DNA of 6,397 nt from the NCBI GenBank assembly GCA_021795795.1, contig JAJYPA010000478.1, positions 1-6,397 on the forward strand. The letters are read 5' to 3'. Each line of letters opens with the position of its first letter. Position 1 is the first letter of the stretch. Both the position numbers and the translations under genes were made by a program. Positions 1 to 6,397 of the stretch are shown here, in pieces. Source of the stretch: Pseudomonadota bacterium (GTDB lineage Bacteria > Pseudomonadota > Gammaproteobacteria > Halothiobacillales > Halothiobacillaceae). Under the pieces are notes generated by a model. The model was given only the letters and a program-made list of their open reading frames with translations. It was not told the origin of the DNA and did not search any database.

Positions 1-273
1 GTCCCGCCCGGAGTGCTCGCCGCCGACGACGACCACCCGCCCAGACTTGATGGTTCGGCCAAACCATGTCGGACTGCCTCCAGCAATATGAACGGCGAGG
101 CTGTAGATCAGCGAACTTTTGCCCGCGTTCGGGGGGCCGAATACATCACCGGCGACCCCGGCGGGCAGTATCCCCTCCACCAGCCAGTCCACAGGCGGTG
201 GCAGGTCGGCAAAGTCGGCCCAGTCGATTAACTGGACGGTGGGGTTCCTGGTTTTGGTGTGCAGCGTGGTCAT
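1..273 (-). CDS. RepA-like AAA ATPase/replicative helicase, N-terminal part (runs off the left edge)
   Basis: The frame is open from ATG at 273 to the window edge, giving the first 91 residues of a longer protein. Residues 46-53 (GPPNAGKS) form a Walker A P-loop. Residues 78-90 (SGRVVVVGGEHSG) resemble the strand and GE motif after the P-loop in the RepA/AAA_25 helicases of plasmids and integrated elements. Such proteins are hexameric DNA helicases that initiate or support element replication. The start has a ribosome site: GGGAG ends 7 bases before the ATG. No ATG or GTG occurs upstream in frame before the stop at 385-387. The family call rests on the P-loop context only, since Walker B lies outside the window. 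A DnaB-like or other P-loop ATPase is possible. It sits on the element side of the tRNA scar, which fits a mobile-element gene. Confidence 0.65.
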   Translation of the reverse strand, partial: MTTLHTKTRNPTVQLIDWADFADLPPPVDWLVEGILPAGVAGDVFGPPNAGKSSLIYSLAVHIAGGSPTWFGRTIKSGRVVVVGGEHSGRD

Positions 274-608
274 GGCCGTGCTCCCTGAAGAGTGGATCTG
301 CCATCTGTGCGGACTTGAAAGACCTGATGCGGGTTTTGCAGCGCCGGAGACTTTAGCCAACCAACTTGGCCGGTGACGCTGTTTTCAGCGATGGCCGTGC
401 GACCATCGTTGGTAGTACCATTGCGATGATGGGAAAAGAGAGGACCGTTTGGTTTTCTTTCTCCGCCGCTGTGAGCGCGGGATTGATGTTACGATGGTGC
501 GAACATCAGCCGGATCGGATTGACCTTGGGTGCTCATCGAGGTGAGGGAAAGAAAATAACGGTTTCCAGAGGGCCGGTTCCGCGCTCCAATTTTGCTCCA
601 CTGACTTT
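274..608. other. stretch of about 335 bases with no convincing gene
   Basis: This lies between the RepA-like start and the phased repeats. A minus-strand frame from TTG at 654 to a stop at 385 encodes an arginine/serine-rich 89-residue string with no recognisable domain and no ribosome site. Another minus-strand frame ends in an ATGA overlap with the RepA-like start but has no usable start codon. I see no terminator or RNA gene. It is probably upstream control sequence for the helicase gene. Confidence 0.4.
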
Positions 609-644
609 GTGTTTGTCCGTGTTTCAGCGTGTATGGGCGTGTAT
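609..644. repeat. four direct repeats GTGTWT with exact 10-bp period
   Basis: GTGTTT occurs at 609-614 and 619-624, and GTGTAT at 629-634 and 639-644, each followed by a 4-base spacer. A 10-bp period puts all copies on one face of the helix, as for co-operatively bound protein. The array starts 95 bp from the tRNA fragment, on the inferred element side. Two readings fit: arm-type or excisionase sites next to an attachment core, or iterons of a replication origin serving the RepA-like gene. An AT-rich tract (645-660) follows directly. Confidence 0.6.
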
Positions 645-703
645 TAAATATCAATATTTACAATCGGTTACGACGTAGTGCATTGATTGGAAAAGAGATA
701 AAA

Positions 704-753
704 TCTGCCTCCGAAGCCGAAGGTCACTGGTTCGACTCCAGTACTGCGCACCA
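704..753 (+). other. 3' fragment of tRNA-Arg(CCG); probable integration attachment site
   Basis: The bases map to tRNA positions 27-76: anticodon stem, loop CTCCGAA (709-715) with anticodon CCG at 711-713, variable loop AGGTC, T arm ACTGG-TTCGACT-CCAGT (726-742) with its invariant TTCGA, acceptor 3' strand ACTGCGC (743-749), discriminator A and encoded CCA (751-753). The anticodon stem has one mismatch, T706 against C718. The D arm and 5' acceptor strand (expected GCGCAGT) are absent upstream, so it cannot be a working tRNA. The mismatch suggests that identity with the intact gene begins near 707. The likely origin is an attachment-site duplication left by integrase. Confidence 0.8.
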
Positions 754-862
754 TAATTAAGTTAAAGGTCTGAGTATCGTGCCTGGGTTTTTGGTTGCCA
801 TCCGGCTTAAATGCTCTACTGAGGTCAATTTTCGGCGCTTTTGTGCAACGCATTGTTAGCCG
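754..862. other. intergenic region between the tRNA fragment and the DsrE-like gene
   Basis: I see no gene here. A minus-strand reading frame spanning 668-853 is the antisense of the tRNA fragment and not a protein gene. No hairpin followed by a T run is visible for termination of the DsrE-like transcript. Confidence 0.5.
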
Positions 863-1219
863 CTAAAATGTAATGACCTTGTCACTATCGGTGACCCAAT
901 CCGCTAATTCTGACATCGTGGACTTTTCCGCTCCCTCAAAATAGGGATGATTCTTGTAGATGCCACAACGTGCCATACACGTTCCACAAACCTTGACCAA
1001 AGCGCCTTGTGCAATGAGCTCCTTGAGCATCTTGGACAAATCCTGGTCGTATCCTTCTGGTGGTTTGCAGACATCACGAGCCATGTCGACGGAATCATTC
1101 ATCAGGAACACTCTTACTTCTTGGCCTGCCTCCAGGAGTTTTCCGGCAAGACGCAAACCATTCCAAGTTACGTCAGTGTTGTCATAAGGCTCACGGTTGA
1201 AAATTATCAGCGCTTTCAT
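863..1219 (-). CDS. DsrE/DsrF-like sulfur relay family protein
   Basis: This 118-residue protein has the usual length of the DsrE/DsrF/TusD family, small cytoplasmic proteins that form oligomers and often carry persulfide sulfur on a cysteine. The N terminus (MKALIIFNREPYDN) is the first strand and loop of the fold. Residues 76-86 (VKVCGTCMARC) match the family's conserved VxxCGTC segment, with cysteines at 78, 81 and 85; Cys51 is a fourth. GGAGAG lies 3 bases before the ATG. It is divergent from hcp across a 298-bp regulatory region that holds a weak FNR-type box, which suggests a linked response. Whether it moves sulfur, binds metal or does something else cannot be read from sequence. The TusD, DsrE2 and YchN-like branches are not separable here. 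Confidence 0.85.
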   Translation of the reverse strand: MKALIIFNREPYDNTDVTWNGLRLAGKLLEAGQEVRVFLMNDSVDMARDVCKPPEGYDQDLSKMLKELIAQGALVKVCGTCMARCGIYKNHPYFEGAEKSTMSELADWVTDSDKVITF

Positions 1220-1305
1220 TTTCTCTCCACAGCTTTGATCGGTGGATATATACTCATGTCACACACAACTTAAAATATTAAAGCATATTAACATTCATAA
1301 AACCA

Positions 1306-1319
1306 ATGATGCAACTCAA
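1306..1319 (-). promoter_or_regulatory. weak FNR-type box upstream of the DsrE-like gene
   Basis: Read on the minus strand this is TTGAG-TTGC-ATCAT, 8 of 10 matches to TTGAT-N4-ATCAA. It lies inside a CCAAT...ATTGG inverted repeat (1303-1323). A possible -10 (TAATAT, 1275-1280 on the minus strand) would put the box about 44 bp before the start of transcription, close to but not at class II spacing. This is only a candidate. Confidence 0.3.
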
Positions 1320-1331
1320 TTGGAGGTCGGC

Positions 1332-1427
1332 ATGCCCAACAAGGATCGAATGAACAGTCGACAGGGAGTCCGTCCGTCATGGATAGCAGCCCCCTGGAAT
1401 CCGGGTAGAACGCCAAAGATGCTATAG
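1332..1427 (+). CDS. possible small ORF upstream of hcp (31 residues)
   Basis: An ATG at 1332 is preceded by GGAGG at 1322-1326 with a 5-base spacer, a strong ribosome site. The frame runs 31 codons (MPNKDRMNSRQGVR...TPKML) and stops 11 bp before the FNR-type box of hcp. I recognise no family. It lies upstream of the inferred hcp transcription start, so it would need its own promoter. It may be chance. Confidence 0.2.
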   Translation: MPNKDRMNSRQGVRPSWIAAPWNPGRTPKML

Positions 1428-1438
1428 GTCTTGGATCC

Positions 1439-1452
1439 TTGATCGAGATCAA
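1439..1452 (+). promoter_or_regulatory. perfect FNR/ANR/DNR-type operator for hcp-hcr
   Basis: TTGAT-CGAG-ATCAA is a perfect match to the FNR-family consensus and is extended to 9-bp arms (ATCCTTGAT / ATCAAGGAT, 1435-1456). Its centre, 1445.5, is 41.5 bp before an inferred start at 1487, the class II activator position. FNR-type activation of hcp is known in E. coli. The regulator could be an oxygen-sensing FNR/ANR or an NO-sensing DNR/NnrR, since their sites are nearly the same. Confidence 0.85.
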
Positions 1453-1474
1453 GGATTACTCTGACCGCGACAGG

Positions 1475-1480
1475 CACCAT
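1475..1480 (+). promoter_or_regulatory. candidate -10 element of the hcp promoter
   Basis: CACCAT keeps A at position 2 and AT at the end of TATAAT. It lies 22 bp after the operator, giving transcription from about 1487 and a leader of about 31 bases. The poor match and lack of a -35 fit an activator-dependent promoter. The same arrangement recurs at 5406-5447. Confidence 0.5.
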
Positions 1481-1517
1481 TCACCGACGTACACCACAAC
1501 TTCAGGAGACGCCCATT

Positions 1518-3188
1518 ATGTTTTGCTATCAATGCGAACAAACCACACGTACCCCCGCCGGAATAGGCTGTACCAGTGCGCCGGGAACGTGCGGCAAGGA
1601 CGAGGCCACAGCCGGTCTGCAGGATATTCTCACGCACCTTATTAAGGGCATTGCCCAGTATGCGCGCCGGGCGCGGGCGATGGGTATTGTCGACAGGCAT
1701 ACGGACGACTTCATTTTTTATGGTCTTTTCACCACGCTAACCAATGTGGACTTCACTGCTACACGTTTTGTCCACCTGATCCAGGAGGCCACCAAAAGGC
1801 GTGAGCGAATCAAATTATTGTACGAGGAAGCGGCGCGAGAGCAGGGCAAGACTCCCGAAATTTTGTCCGGTCCAGCCGCCTTTCAACCCGCCGATGGTCT
1901 GGAACAACTGCTGCGTCAAGCCCCTGGCGTCGCCATAAATGCTGGCGCCGAGCATCTCGGATCAGATGTAATCGGTGCTCGTGCCCTCATCCTCTATGGC
2001 ATGAAAGGCGTAGCCGCTTACGCTCAACACGCCCGTGTTCTGGGTTATCAGAGTGACGAAGTCGACGCCCAGGCGGAGGAAATCCTGGATTACTTGGCAA
2101 GTAATCCAACGGACATCGATGCAATGTTGGAAGAATCGTTGGAAGTTGGCCGTTTGAACCTGAAGGTGATGGAATTACTTGACGCGGCCAACACCGGCAG
2201 TTTTGGAGCGCAGGAAATCACCTCTGTGCGCATCTCCCCGATCAAAGGGAAGGCAATTCTGGTCAGCGGTCATGATCTCCATGATCTGAAGCAAATCCTG
2301 GAGCAGACCAAGGATCAGGGGATAAATGTGTACACCCATGGCGAGATGCTGCCAGCCAACGCCTATCCCACGCTCAAGGCATACCCTCATCTGGCAGGGA
2401 ATCTAGGGGGAGCATGGCAGGATCAGCAGCGCGAATTTGCAGATTTCCCTGGACCCATTGTCATGACTTCCAACTGCATCATTGAGCCGGGCAAAAGTTA
2501 TAAGAATCGCATTTTTACCCTTGGCCCAGTGGGTTGGCCCGGTGTCCGCCATATTGACAATGGGGATTTCACGCCTGTTATCCAGGCCGCCAAGGCCTTG
2601 CCGGGATTCGCTGCCGATGCAGAAGATCAACGGATCACCATCGGTTTTGGACATCACACCCTCTTGGGCGTGGCTGACAAAATCGTAGATGCAGTAAAGT
2701 CCGGAGACATTCGCCACTTCTTCCTCGTCGGTGGTTGCGACGGTGTTTCTCCGGCGCGCAACTATTTCACGGAGGTAGCGGACAATGCCCCCGCCGACTC
2801 GGTAGTAATGACCTTGGGTTGCGGTAAGTATCGATTCAATAAGCATGAATTCGGAGATATCGGAGGCATTCCCCGCCTGCTGGATATCGGCCAATGCAAT
2901 GATGCCCACTCCGCCATCCGGGTAGCGAGTGCCCTGGCCGAAGCCTTCAATTGTGGAGTCAATGACCTGCCGTTGTCGATCATGCTTTCCTGGTTTGAAC
3001 AAAAGGCTACCGCCATTCATCTTTCCCTACTGGCTTTGGGTATCAAGGGGATCAAGCTAGGGCCAACCCTGCCAGCCTATCTCACACCAACTCTGGTGCA
3101 AAAGCTCCAATCACGTTTCGACCTTGATCTCGATCTTATTGGCGAGGCGCAAGCGGATTTGCAGGCGGCCCTGACGCATACAGCATAG
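1518..3188 (+). CDS. hcp: hybrid cluster protein (hydroxylamine/NO reductase), class II
   Basis: Hcp is a cytoplasmic iron-sulfur protein that reduces NO (and in vitro hydroxylamine) and protects against nitrosative stress. This 556-residue copy is full length. The N terminus carries Cys3, Cys6, Cys18 and Cys25 (CX2CX11CX6C), the pattern of the facultative-anaerobe class II proteins such as E. coli Hcp, which bind a [2Fe-2S] proximal cluster; class I proteins of strict anaerobes have tighter spacing. All eight hybrid-cluster ligands can be located: His252 (GHDLHDL), Glu276 (THGEM), Cys320 ([11 protein letters not shown]), Cys407 (GGCDG), Cys435 (LGCGKY), Cys460 (GQCNDAHSA), Glu494 and Lys496 (WFEQKA). 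The start has AGGAG at 1504-1508 and the MFCYQCEQT opening is typical. It is co-transcribed with the reductase gene that follows and is preceded by a perfect FNR-type box. Confidence 0.97.
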
Positions 3189-3199
3189 CACAATGGATC

Positions 3200-3228
3200 G
3201 CCGCTTCGTTCCGCACGGACGATGCGGC
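3200..3228 (+). promoter_or_regulatory. hcp-hcr intercistronic hairpin
   Basis: GCCGC (3200-3204) pairs with GCGGC (3224-3228). After a T/T mismatch, TCGT pairs with ACGA and CC with GG, around loop GCAC (3213-3216), with one bulged T at 3210. No T run follows, so it is not a standard terminator. It ends 2 bases before the AAGGA of hcr and could stabilise the upstream message or adjust the hcp:hcr ratio. Confidence 0.5.
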
Positions 3229-3245
3229 ATAAGGATGAGCACATC

Positions 3246-4274
3246 ATGACCAACTACGATATCACTATCCATACCCGTGATAGGCAACGGGTGTCCTTCG
3301 TCTGTTCTGAGGCGGAAGATTTACTCTCCGCTGCGGACCGGGAAAGCATCCTGCTTCCTTCCCAATGCCGGAAAGGGACCTGTGGAGCTTGCGTGGCCAC
3401 GGTCACCGCGGGTTCTTATCGCCTGGGAGAAGTGAGTATGGAAGCACTGCCAGAAAATGCGCAGGCGCGAGGCGATGTACTTCTGTGCCGTACCTATCCG
3501 CGAGCGGATCTGATTCTGGAGGCGCCCTATGACTACGACTACATCCGTTTCGAGCGCATTCCGGAGCGCGAGGCCGAAGTGATTGAAGTCACTATGGTGG
3601 CTATCGGTACGAGACGACTGTTGTTACGTCTGCAACCCGATGCGCAGGGGGGAGCTGCGGAATTCGAAGCCGGGCAATTTATGGAAATCCAGGTGCCGGG
3701 TAGCGGTGCGCGTCGCGCCTATTCGCTGGCCAATAACACCAACTGGAATGGCGACCTGGAATTTTTCATCACGCTGCGCCCTGGCGGTGCCTTCTCTACC
3801 TATCTGGAATCCGCCCTGGTGGGCGATCGCCTGAACATACGTGGACCACTTGGAACCTTTACCCTGAGAGAAAATGGCCTGCGGCCACGGTGGTTCGTTG
3901 GTGGCGGGACAGGTCTGGTGCCGCTACTGTCGATGCTGCGCCGCATGGCAGATTGGGGAGAAATGCTTCCGGCACGGCTATACTTCGGCGCGAGATATGA
4001 AGACGAACTCTTCTGTCAGGAAGAAATCCGCCAGATCCAGGATAAACTTCCCCAACTGCAGGTTAAGATATGCCTTTCACGTCCTGGAAATGAATGGGCG
4101 GGTTATCGAGGCAGCATAATGGATGCCTTGCGCGATGACTTGGGAAGCCTTGCGGTTTCACCGGACCTGTATGTTTGCGGATCAACACGACTGGTCCAGG
4201 GGGTGACGGAATTGGCTCTGAGCCAGGGGTTACCGGATTCCAGTTTGCGGTTTGAACGATTTTTGTCTGCATAG
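3246..4274 (+). CDS. hcr: NADH-dependent Hcp reductase, ferredoxin domain at the N terminus (Hcr-like)
   Basis: This 342-residue flavin/iron-sulfur reductase is placed to pass electrons from NAD(P)H through FAD and [2Fe-2S] to Hcp. Residues 1-90 are a plant-type ferredoxin with Cys41, Cys46, Cys49 and Cys81. Then comes a ferredoxin-NADP reductase-like FAD domain (RAYSLANN, residues 157-164) and an NAD domain (GGGTGLVPLL at 219-228, YVCGSTR at 309-315). This order is that of oxygenase reductases such as BenC and MmoC; E. coli Hcr has the FAD/NAD part first and ferredoxin last. The role rests on its place 57 bp behind hcp. I chose ATG 3246, behind AAGGA at 3231-3235, over in-frame ATG 3222 because that one lies inside the hairpin stem and the fold begins at MTNYDITIHT. 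Its 3' end overlaps the convergent ferredoxin remnant. Confidence 0.88.
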   Translation: MTNYDITIHTRDRQRVSFVCSEAEDLLSAADRESILLPSQCRKGTCGACVATVTAGSYRLGEVSMEALPENAQARGDVLLCRTYPRADLILEAPYDYDYIRFERIPEREAEVIEVTMVAIGTRRLLLRLQPDAQGGAAEFEAGQFMEIQVPGSGARRAYSLANNTNWNGDLEFFITLRPGGAFSTYLESALVGDRLNIRGPLGTFTLRENGLRPRWFVGGGTGLVPLLSMLRRMADWGEMLPARLYFGARYEDELFCQEEIRQIQDKLPQLQVKICLSRPGNEWAGYRGSIMDALRDDLGSLAVSPDLYVCGSTRLVQGVTELALSQGLPDSSLRFERFLSA

Positions 4275-4406
4275 TGCAGTGTCTATGCCTCGGAATTCCA
4301 GGTGACGTGATTGCCCGCAGCGAAATGTTTTTTCTAGGACCAAAAAATTGGGGTCCTCGTCGGTGTACTTGCAGAGAATGCAGGATTCCGTCACCACATG
4401 CGTCAT
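4230..4406 (-). pseudogene. broken 7Fe/4Fe-4S ferredoxin remnant
   Basis: The first 16 residues, MTHVVTESCILCKYTD, are the hallmark start of bacterial FdxA-type 7Fe ferredoxins, which normally continue with a Cys-rich CVxVCPVDCF segment, then a PNFLVI strand and a second cluster motif of about 100 residues in all. Here residue 16 is followed directly by EDPNFLVLE: about 12 residues holding three cluster cysteines are missing without loss of frame. After LVLE the similarity ends and an unrelated tail runs to a stop at 4230, inside the convergent hcr gene. Only Cys9 and Cys12 of the family motif remain, so it cannot bind the normal clusters. The start is well formed: GAGGAG 5 bases upstream, and its ATG overlaps the TGA of the preceding gene (ATGA). 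I read it as a decayed last gene of the operon; a sequencing or assembly fault is the other option. Confidence 0.75.
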
Positions 4407-4912
4407 GGTTGCTCCTCTGTGCGGCGTACCCGCCGCGGCCAATGATCATGAATACTGAACACGAGGTGCAGTAGCCATAAAAACAGCAGAATCCCCGCGA
4501 TGGTGCGATGCCAGGGGAGGAGTCCGCCATGATTCTGCCATAGCAGGATACCGATGCACGCAGTGATGCTGGCAAAAATGAGGAAAAGACCCTCCACCAG
4601 GGCATCAAGACCATCACGAAGTGCTTTGGACGCCCCAGACTCCCGGTTTAACTGCAGGCGCAGTTGATGCCGAGATTCCACGGAGAGCAGAAAAATGCGC
4701 GCCGCCGTCTGCCGCCCCGGCGTATTGCCCAGCAACCAAACCCATTCCCCCGCGAGAAAGCATACCGCAGCTAGGCCATCGGCGATATGAAATGCGTAAA
4801 CCGAGGCATCTCCCATGGCGAGCAAGAAACCGGAGATCAATTGCAGGGTAACCGTCAGTACCAAACCCAACAACACGAACAGCGCCCAGCGCGCCCGGCA
4901 GGATGTAGCCAT
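4403..4912 (-). CDS. four-helix inner-membrane protein, possible b-type cytochrome
   Basis: This 169-residue protein has four likely membrane helices: about 9-32, 40-61, 104-125 and 136-155. The loop between helices 2 and 3 (62-103) is polar with several arginines. Histidines at 42 (YAFHIADG), 135 (PWHRTIAG) and 149 (LLHLVF) lie in or at the edge of helices 2 and 4, as heme b ligands do in cytochrome b561-like and DUF4405-type proteins, but I cannot confirm heme binding. It begins 1 base after the hemerythrin remnant stops and its TGA overlaps the ferredoxin start, so it is translated within the operon. A membrane cytochrome beside a ferredoxin suggests electron passage between quinones and soluble carriers, which is inference. 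It looks intact although both neighbours are broken. Confidence 0.7.
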   Translation of the reverse strand: MATSCRARWALFVLLGLVLTVTLQLISGFLLAMGDASVYAFHIADGLAAVCFLAGEWVWLLGNTPGRQTAARIFLLSVESRHQLRLQLNRESGASKALRDGLDALVEGLFLIFASITACIGILLWQNHGGLLPWHRTIAGILLFLWLLHLVFSIHDHWPRRVRRTEEQP

Positions 4913-4913
4913 T

Positions 4914-5090
4914 TTACTGTGCCTGACGTCGCCGCGCCATGGTCGCGCCTATGCTCGCCCGCTTTCCCGTACCTAGCATACCTTCGGCGATGGGGAGTAT
5001 TTCTCCATGCCCGAGGATGCGCTCATGGCAGGCACGCAGCAGGCCAATCGGGTCATCGAAGGTGGGGGCTGGTTCCCCCAGGAGGTTCAT
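4914..5090 (-). pseudogene. internally deleted hemerythrin (HHE) domain protein
   Basis: The 58-residue product reads as two ends of a hemerythrin-domain protein fused in frame. Residues 1-25 (MNLLGEPAPTFDDPIGLLRA, then CHERI) match the N terminus of bacterial HHE proteins usually found with DUF2249; His22 would be the first iron ligand. Residues 30-55 (EILPIAEGMLGTGKRASIGA, then TMARRR) match the C-terminal helix and tail. The middle, normally about 100 residues with the remaining His/Glu/Asp di-iron ligands, is absent. It cannot form the four-helix O2/NO-binding bundle. The ATG overlaps the TGA of the DUF2249 gene (ATGA, 5087-5090) with GGGGGAACC-type sequence only inside the gene, so translation is probably coupled. 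It ends 1 base before the membrane protein gene. The intact frame implies a clean deletion; a short functional peptide is possible but less likely. Confidence 0.75.
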
Positions 5091-5371
5091 GACGGATCTC
5101 CACCTGCCGTATTCACGGTAAAACGTATCCGGATTTCGTGCGGATCACGGACTTCGTAGGCAATGGCGACTTTATCGCCGTAGCGGGTGCGGAGTTGTTC
5201 CAAAAGGGGCAACGGATCATGGTCGTTGACAAAAAGCATCGCTTCGCCTGCCGAAAGCGCATCCAGCGCCCCGAAGATGGCGGCGTGCCGAAAGCGTTTG
5301 GCAATTCCGCGCGCGTCGAAGGGATAGACGGCATCGCTGCGTAAGTGCTGATGATGTAGCTGTTCTTTCAT
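5087..5371 (-). CDS. DUF2249 domain protein
   Basis: This 94-residue protein carries the two signatures of DUF2249: DARG (19-22), which opens the domain, and FVNDHDPLPLL (47-57), followed by a YGDKVAIAYE strand. The fold is related to TusA/SirA-like small proteins; its biochemical role is not established, but such genes recur beside hemerythrin and NO-metabolism genes. I chose ATG 5371, with GAGG 9 bases upstream, over in-frame ATG 5407. The inferred transcription start (about 5399) lies downstream of 5407, and residues before 5371 (MGCRIHDSRISP) look unlike the family. It is the first gene of a tight minus-strand operon and its TGA overlaps the start of the hemerythrin remnant. Confidence 0.88.
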   Translation of the reverse strand: MKEQLHHQHLRSDAVYPFDARGIAKRFRHAAIFGALDALSAGEAMLFVNDHDPLPLLEQLRTRYGDKVAIAYEVRDPHEIRIRFTVNTAGGDPS

Positions 5372-5405
5372 GGGAGATATCCTCGAATCGTGAATACGAC
5401 AGCCC

Positions 5406-5411
5406 ATGGTT
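5406..5411 (-). promoter_or_regulatory. candidate -10 element of the DUF2249 operon
   Basis: AACCAT on the minus strand lies exactly 22 bp after the FNR-type box, matching the CACCAT element before hcp in both sequence and spacing. Transcription would begin near 5399 and leave a leader of about 28 bases carrying GAGG before ATG 5371. Confidence 0.45.
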
Positions 5412-5426
5412 GTTCATCTCAGTCAG

Positions 5427-6397
5427 TTATTCCTTGATCTGCGTCAAGGGCTCATTAAAAGCATTGCTTTGTTCCCCAGATTCTTGCTGATTGACCCCGT
5501 TCCAAGCGGAAAACACCGTATAGACTTTACTATACCGTAACAGGTGACTGTGTTCCTGAGTGGGCAGGAGTTCGCCCATGCCATAGGCGCCTAGCGTGGG
5601 GAGTTGTGGAAAACGCTCTCGCCAGAGGGCCAAATCACGGTCTTCGCCACCAAAGAAGGCAACATCCCGCCCGATAGAACTGGAAATCCAGGCGAAGGCC
5701 GGGGACGGCGCATTCGTCGCCAGGGTTTCCAAGGCAATGCGGGTGTCACGCTCCGCAGAAGATGGGTCGCGGAGGGTAAGAAACGCACGGGATTCCTCCT
5801 CCAGCGCCCGCTCCAGCCAGAGCCCGCTGCGATTGATATCGGTAGCCCGGATGTGCAGCAAGCTGGGTGGCGTATCTGGATGGGTGTCCTTCCTGACTTC
5901 GCCGATGAGTAAACGCTCCAGGGGCAGGCGAGCCTCCTGGCGGATACTGAAGGGGATGTTCTGGGCCAGCATGGGTAAGGCCAGATAACGCTCCAGTTGC
6001 AACAGCAGGTTGCCTTCCTGACGGGTAACAGGAAGTATTGCGCTCAAGGGCCGCAGCCCTGCCGACCAGGCAGAGTGCTGCGCAGATATTCCCCGAAAAC
6101 ACAGTTCTACAGGTTCGCGTCGGGCACTGGCATGCAGCCAGAAGCACCCGGTACGACTGCTCACGCTGCCGAAACCGGCGGACTGGCCAAGCCAGTGCGG
6201 CGTCGTTTGATCCGGACGCGCCCAGCGCAGACGTGGCATGCCCGGCCCCTGACCGCTGCGGCTGAGCCCCAGGGGTGAGGCGAGCAGCAGCACGGCGCAA
6301 GCGGGATCCCCCAGTGCCTGACCGGCGTCGGTGAAAACGCCGGGGAAAGTCGCTGCCGCGATCTGCAGACACGCCAACTGCCGCATCTGTGCCTGCA
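5427..6397 (-). CDS. FIST-domain protein (N terminus may lie beyond the window)
   Basis: FIST proteins are predicted ligand-sensing proteins, often linked to signal transduction; the ligand is thought to be small, such as amino acids. Counting from ATG 6386 there are 319 residues. The C-terminal FIST_C part is clear: SSSIGRDVAFFGGEDRD (235-251), FPQLPTLGAYGMGELLP (259-275) and LLRYSKVYTVFS (282-293). Residues 1-120 are a divergent FIST_N-like region with WLGQSAGFGSV at 65-75. The family usually has a cysteine just before the GR motif, but here it is serine (SSSIGR). The frame stays open from 6386 to the window edge, so the true start may be upstream; no ribosome site can be judged in the 11 bases available. 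A 55-bp gap holding a promoter-like signal separates it from the DUF2249 gene, so it may be transcribed apart. No kinase or cyclase output domain is present. Confidence 0.75.
   Translation of the reverse strand, partial: QAQMRQLACLQIAAATFPGVFTDAGQALGDPACAVLLLASPLGLSRSGQGPGMPRLRWARPDQTTPHWLGQSAGFGSVSSRTGCFWLHASARREPVELCFRGISAQHSAWSAGLRPLSAILPVTRQEGNLLLQLERYLALPMLAQNIPFSIRQEARLPLERLLIGEVRKDTHPDTPPSLLHIRATDINRSGLWLERALEEESRAFLTLRDPSSAERDTRIALETLATNAPSPAFAWISSSIGRDVAFFGGEDRDLALWRERFPQLPTLGAYGMGELLPTQEHSHLLRYSKVYTVFSAWNGVNQQESGEQSNAFNEPLTQIKE
5434..5447 (-). promoter_or_regulatory. FNR/ANR/DNR-type operator for the DUF2249 operon
   Basis: On the minus strand TTGAC-GCAG-ATCAA matches TTGAT-N4-ATCAA at 9 of 10 bases. 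It lies within the last codons of the FIST gene. It shares the ten bases AGATCAAGGA with the hcp operator, and its centre is 41.5 bp before the inferred start at about 5399. This suggests that the DUF2249 operon has its own promoter, activated by the same regulator as hcp. Confidence 0.65.

Follow-up and report, generated by a model that had tools for sequence, protein, structure and literature searches.

The hybrid cluster protein gene hcp, with an hcr-type reductase gene behind it, and an operon headed by a DUF2249 gene lie on opposite strands of a 6,397-nucleotide contig (JAJYPA010000478.1 of assembly GCA_021795795.1), referred to here over its whole length as the window. The initial annotation placed an FNR-type promoter of identical geometry before each of them, and the locus raises the question whether the two promoters are under shared control and which regulator reads them. 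Positions 572-6397 of the window are 99% identical to a contig of an Acidithiobacillus metagenome-assembled genome (MAG; locus L001, genome G001), and Acidithiobacillus ferrivorans DSM 22755 (locus L002, genome G002) is 91-93% identical to the window over the aligning parts. Comparisons with these and other genomes indicate that the hcp-hcr and DUF2249 promoters are very probably under shared control. The best explanation, and one that we hold to be likely, is that both are under a DNR-like, presumably nitric oxide (NO)-responsive regulator of a small nitrosative-defence regulon. The boxes, their conservation, the -10 spacing, the genes behind four sites in G001 and the sequence kinship of the regulator were computed directly.

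Two operators and their -10-like hexamers

Both operators were found where the initial annotation had placed them. Site 1, TTGATCGAGATCAA at 1439-1452, has no mismatch to the box TTGATN4ATCAA (10/10), and site 2, TTGATCTGCGTCAA at 5434-5447, has one (9/10) and reads TTGACGCAGATCAA on the minus strand; AGATCAAGGA is common to both. The longer motif CTTGAYN4RTCAAG is matched exactly by both sites, at 1438-1453 (CTTGATCGAGATCAAG, plus strand) and at 5433-5448 (minus strand). The former is the predicted DNR/FNR-type operator of hcp-hcr, and an exact box is also found at the related hcp places; the latter is the predicted DNR/FNR-type operator of the DUF2249 operon. The second operator lies, as had been proposed, inside the end of the FIST reading frame, where it codes for residues LTQIK.

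The hexamers CACCAT (1475-1480, plus strand) and AACCAT (5406-5411, minus strand) each begin 22 bp past the 14-bp box, so that the gaps, the hexamers and the common sequence are all as first described. In class II activation by the CRP/FNR family the box is centred at -41.5, which corresponds to 22 bp from a 14-bp box to the -10 element. This spacing is present at both window sites, and in relatives the -10-like motif TAnnnT peaks at the same offset. On this geometry the regulator would activate rather than repress, and transcription would start at about 1487 (plus strand) for hcp-hcr and 5399 (minus strand) for the DUF2249 operon. The start codon of hcp lies 79 bp from its box, and that of DUF2249 76 bp. 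At the place of CACCAT the hcp orthologues have CACCAT, CACCCT, TATTGT or CAATAT, and at the place of AACCAT the DUF2249 loci L188, L101 and L104 have AACCAT or AACTAT. Hexamers of related promoters at this offset include TATTGT, TAAACT, TATTCT and TACAAT.

A simple sigma-70 scan (TTGACA/TATAAT) of the window picked up neither promoter, an outcome to be expected of promoters that depend on an activator. Allowing up to 3 mismatches, the window contains no match to the NsrR site gATGyAT-N5-ATrCATc, and no match to the NnrR and sigma-54 motifs there stands above chance.

The first alternative to be considered is that the two sites agree by chance. Even with 2 mismatches allowed, the long motif CTTGAYN4RTCAAG occurs in the window only at these two sites; at least two such loose matches were obtained in 30 of 200 shuffles of the window. 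Loose matches to the box itself (up to 2 mismatches) number 7, which 4 of 200 shuffles reach. As loose matches are this frequent in shuffled sequence, the window alone does not settle significance, and the question was decided by counts across genomes.

Conservation of the box and the genes behind it

Strict matches to the motif number 36 across 11 related genomes, compared to 1 for the reversed control; since these genomes are related to each other, the 36 are non-independent counts. In G001 there are 4 against 0. A looser scan (TTGAYN4RTCAAGGA, up to 1 mismatch) was carried out on 7 genomes and gave, for example, 10 forward matches and 1 control match in G001. The spacing was counted at 20 Acidithiobacillus-type promoters out of 30 entries; the ten set aside are nine near-duplicates and a reading of the thioredoxin site on the opposite strand, and some of the 20 are still close relatives. 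TAnnnT stands at offset 22 in 10 of these 20 (7 globin, 2 hcp, 1 thioredoxin) and in 9 of 16 distant hcp promoters, and at the other offsets scanned from 12 to 35 bp the count is 0-3. The looser form.AnnnT, which fits the window hexamers, is found at offset 22 in 17 of the 20 and elsewhere in at most 5. The excess of strict matches over the control, together with the TAnnnT peak at offset 22 and an exact box at all eight related hcp places, makes chance agreement exceedingly improbable, which bears out what the initial annotation had argued from the two loci.

The loss of the box in relatives that keep both operons had been named as evidence that would refute the proposal. Among 57 relatives hcp is present in 7, at 8 places, and the exact box TTGAYN4RTCAA lies upstream at all 8, as it does in the two pTF5-type plasmid copies examined. 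The hcp-hcr pair of the pTF5 plasmid family has 90-91% DNA identity to that of the window. For DUF2249, 10 loci were examined (the strongest short-domain matches, one per genome), and an exact box within 280 bp upstream was found at 6 (G001, G005, G009, G012, G018, G021); a second G009 copy and a plasmid copy also carry it. The comparison therefore came out in full for hcp, and for DUF2249 in six loci and not in the other four. Farther away, 16 of 78 distant hcp loci have an exact TTGAYN4RTCAA within 250 bp upstream, compared to 0.7% of 1560 random windows of the same loci. These 16 include records from plasmids, methanotrophs, mycobacteria and planctomycetes, and in several of them TAnnnT stands precisely 22 bp past the box.

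The genes behind 22 of the 36 strict sites are hcp (8), globin (8), DUF2249 (4) and thioredoxin-like (2). The four strict sites of G001 precede hcp-hcr, DUF2249, a globin gene and a thioredoxin-domain gene. The G001 globin gene (Pfam) is followed by a reductase, a hemerythrin (Pfam) and a GcvH-like gene, and globins more than 90% identical lie downstream of 7 more strict sites (7 other genomes) and of one plasmid site. The thioredoxin-domain gene (Pfam) comes after a CRP/FNR-type regulator gene on the same strand with the box between them, and a NarK-like transporter, below its family cut-off, lies near. This fourth site was also considered as the regulator's own promoter and was rejected, since the box lies past the 3' end of the DNR-like gene and ahead of the thioredoxin-like one. 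On the A. ferrooxidans BYM plasmid the annotated run is globin, FAD oxidoreductase, thioredoxin, hemerythrin, GcvH and then a DUF2249-hemerythrin pair, with boxes before globin and before DUF2249.

These sites suggest a small nitrosative-defence regulon in Acidithiobacillus, which would comprise hcp-hcr, the DUF2249 operon, the globin-reductase-hemerythrin run and the thioredoxin-like gene. Regulation of this kind is well established, and what is new is this Acidithiobacillus instance; a literature search, largely at title level and with subscription journals outside it, found no account of such a regulon in the genus. Published work on haloarchaea and Thermus ties DUF2249 proteins to denitrification and nitrate respiration (PMC11218638, PMC6282519). 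Placing the uncharacterised DUF2249 protein alongside Hcp and a globin, in one small regulon of the acidophilic Acidithiobacillus, gives it a testable condition, namely nitric oxide or nitrite stress.

The regulator that would read the two boxes

The regulator gene next to the thioredoxin site (in G001 C33) encodes a protein that scores 112 bits against Pseudomonas aeruginosa DNR and 59 bits against the best FNR. Its recognition helix is LGLTPETLSR. One cysteine follows the likely start, and a second occurs only in the open-frame leader. The Fe-S cluster of FNR has four cysteine ligands; with a single cysteine, such a cluster is not expected in the G001 regulator. Relatives of this protein share a gene cluster with the globin in G002, G005, G009, G012, G013, G014 and G015, and the contig-end fragments G002:C112 and G014:C243 are pieces of a DNR-like gene. 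DNR senses NO through haem. The DNR-like regulator would bind both window boxes and presumably senses NO or a related nitrogen oxide.

Rodionov et al. (2005, PMC1274295) give CTTGATnnnnATCAAG as the consensus for DNR, and describe the FNR cysteines as missing from DNR and HcpR proteins alike. Because of the kinship to DNR, the lack of the FNR cysteines and the DNR-consensus motif, a nitrogen-oxide-responsive activator of this type is favoured, and the regulator is probably DNR-like rather than an oxygen-sensing FNR. The initial annotation's term FNR-type, taken as oxygen-sensing FNR, is not supported by this comparison; its pair of promoters before hcp-hcr and DUF2249, alike in geometry and family, is supported.

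Several observations weigh against this assignment. The window hexamers CACCAT and AACCAT are weak, with 3 of 6 bases of TATAAT and not of the form TAnnnT; none of six DUF2249 promoters has TAnnnT at offset 22, and in L082, L106 and L107 the place of AACCAT is CGACTA, with GACTAT one base on. Four of the ten DUF2249 loci (G030, G031, G043, G045) are without the box. Three of these have no exact box in about 3.2 kb, and in G031 it occurs only downstream of the gene. As the boxless G031 and G043 match the window DUF2249 DNA about as well as some box-bearing loci, they are real counter-evidence to a universal DUF2249-box link, which is common and not general. The downstream gene is established for the 22 strict sites given above; the other 14, in G005, G007, G012, G018 and G021, may extend the regulon. 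The regulator itself is known from the sister MAG G001 and not from the window's own genome. In NCBIfam it stays below every cut-off (best FtrB, 97.6 of 211) and has no named equivalog, and two unnamed regulators slightly outscore DNR against it (116 bits). Finally, regulators with an E-x-x-S-R helix and N-terminal cysteines are present in G005, G012, G013 and G015, and these could read the same box.

The last point belongs to a second alternative, in which the boxes are read by a genuine FNR/ANR that senses oxygen and carries an Fe-S cluster, alone or beside the DNR-like protein. TTGATN4ATCAA is indeed the FNR consensus as well (PMC1274295), and in the four genomes just named the cysteine-bearing candidates exist. 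Among the CRP-family matches above the Pfam cut-off that were read in G001, G002, G009 and G014, no cysteine-type FNR was found: each is DNR-like or of a type with the helix RRESVSV (G001:C116 was taken as the latter from the complementary strand, which equals that of L154). The G001 and G014 assemblies are small (2.3 and 2.4 Mb), so the absence of FNR there is not proven. In G007, which has the hcp box, the sole match above the cut-off is DNR-like. An oxygen-sensing FNR is an unlikely reader of these boxes, and the DNR-like regulator is retained.

The closest published parallel is the DNR regulon described by Rodionov et al. (2005, PMC1274295) for denitrifying Pseudomonas and beta-proteobacteria, with the same operator, CTTGATnnnnATCAAG, matched exactly by both window sites. 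It also resembles the present case in its DNR-like CRP/FNR regulator without FNR cysteines (here found in G001) and in its nitrogen-oxide-related targets. The two differ in their targets: those seen in the present case are hcp-hcr, DUF2249, globin and thioredoxin, and the core of the published regulon consists of nir, nor and nos (PMC1274295), for which no search was made here. In the HcpR1 regulon, a CRP/FNR regulator without FNR cysteines controls hcp, often with ferredoxin- and hemerythrin-like genes, through TTGACnnnnGTCAA-type sites in cyanobacteria and some delta-proteobacteria (PMC1274295). The Acidithiobacillus regulator differs in having its best score among named solved structures with DNR; kinship to HcpR1 is possible, the placement being by pairwise scores without a tree. 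Enterobacterial FNR-dependent hcp promoters likewise have an FNR-like box upstream of hcp, but add an NsrR site (PMC1274295), of which the window is devoid at the tolerance given above.

Plasmids of the pTF5 type carry a regulator-hcp-hcr-nnrS module (PMC10322971). They share with the window the hcp-hcr pair and the exact box, and differ in the surroundings: the plasmids have a CRP/FNR regulator gene running divergently from hcp, whereas the window has a DsrE-family gene there and the DUF2249 cassette after hcr. The regulator on pTF5 is related to the DNR-like protein of G001. In this pTF5 regulator (L081, 1605-2315) the DNR-like DNA-binding part is kept and a stretch of the sensor domain aligns poorly with the others, which may reflect a compensated frameshift.

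Erosion of the DUF2249 operon and neighbouring genes

All genes of the second operon are on the minus strand. The DUF2249 gene (5087-5371) encodes 94 amino acids (PF10006, 91 bits). It is followed by a hemerythrin remnant of 58 amino acids without a Pfam match (4914-5090), a small membrane protein with a 169-amino-acid open frame that is cytochrome-b-like only under the Pfam cut-off (4403-4912), and an fdxA remnant whose first 16 residues match FdxA (4230-4406; 20.8 bits, cut-off 135). The FIST-domain gene (5427-6386, minus strand; FIST_C 20.2 bits, cut-off 28.5) is codirectional and lies upstream. Its tail extends across the box in the window and likewise in G009, and the FIST protein of G002 ends with a different tail. 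In G009 (L188) the order FIST-box-DUF2249 is followed by a full hemerythrin (171 amino acids, Pfam 55.5 bits), the membrane gene and fdxA, the last with an unbroken start and with its 4Fe-4S motifs kept up to the contig end. Compared to L188, the hemerythrin of the window and of G001 has lost 339 bp in frame, and what is left of the window fdxA is the first 16 residues and one short piece from further on, the internal piece and the 3' part being lost. By these alignments the second operon of the window is eroded, with hemerythrin and fdxA, two of its four genes, as remnants, and the second promoter would now stand before DUF2249, a hemerythrin remnant, the membrane protein and an fdxA remnant. 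The initial annotation had assigned DUF2249, hemerythrin, membrane and ferredoxin genes to the Hcp response; the shared promoter family agrees with this, and working hemerythrin and ferredoxin genes are not present. Annotation of this region calls for caution, as gene calls mask the decay of two genes and also a promoter that lies within a reading frame.

Erosion raises a third alternative, in which site 2 would be a relic, or else a side effect of the FIST codons, and would have no useful output because the operon has decayed. Besides the two remnants, the state of the region in relatives fits this: in G002 everything between about 4333 and 5483 is absent at this locus, so that the cassette is missing, and G014 keeps only short pieces of 76 and 48 bp. 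The differences between window and G001 are synonymous only, in DUF2249 (3), the membrane gene (2) and the hemerythrin remnant (2); DUF2249 of the window and of G009 differ by one replacement and no synonymous change. Because the hemerythrin remnant has the same synonymous-only pattern, these counts are uninformative on selection and do not show that DUF2249 or the membrane gene is maintained. On the other side, the box and AACCAT are identical in the window, G001 and G009, and an exact box before DUF2249 is found also in G005, G009 (two copies), G012, G018, G021 and on the plasmid, counted irrespective of the gene upstream. A relic is, on balance, a distinctly improbable account of site 2, and a functional operator under the DNR-like regulator remains the preferred one. 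It is a doubtful, though conceivable, extension that in this lineage DUF2249 itself, and not its hemerythrin and ferredoxin neighbours, is kept by selection under nitric oxide control. DUF2249 would then be a stand-alone nitrosative-stress protein, whose role could be tested without its usual partner.

In G014 (L093, 6801-6918) the membrane/fdxA end (window 4359-4434) is fused to mid-FIST sequence (5813-5860), and the two sides have about 6 bp in common where they join, which suggests repeated deletions in the region.

On the plus strand, hcp extends from 1518 to 3188 (TIGR01703, 815 bits, cut-off 360.8) and the 2Fe-2S/FAD/NAD reductase from 3246 to 4274. The latter is named hcr from its domains and place; its top NCBIfam match is MmoC, under the cut-off. 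Upstream of hcp, the DsrE-family gene (863-1219, minus strand) occupies the place of the CRP/FNR regulator in pTF5-type plasmids.

Further upstream, positions 678-753 correspond to the 3' part of a tRNA-Arg (Rfam 30.7 bits, cut-off 29, and alignment), of which about 45 bp are identical to the intact tRNA-Arg(CCG) adjoining hcp in G014 (L093); ARAGORN found no tRNA in the window. The sequence on its left is different in the window and in L002. This tRNA part appears to be an attachment scar left by an integrated element. Left of it lies an AAA_25 frame (1-273, minus strand), RepA-like on our reading.

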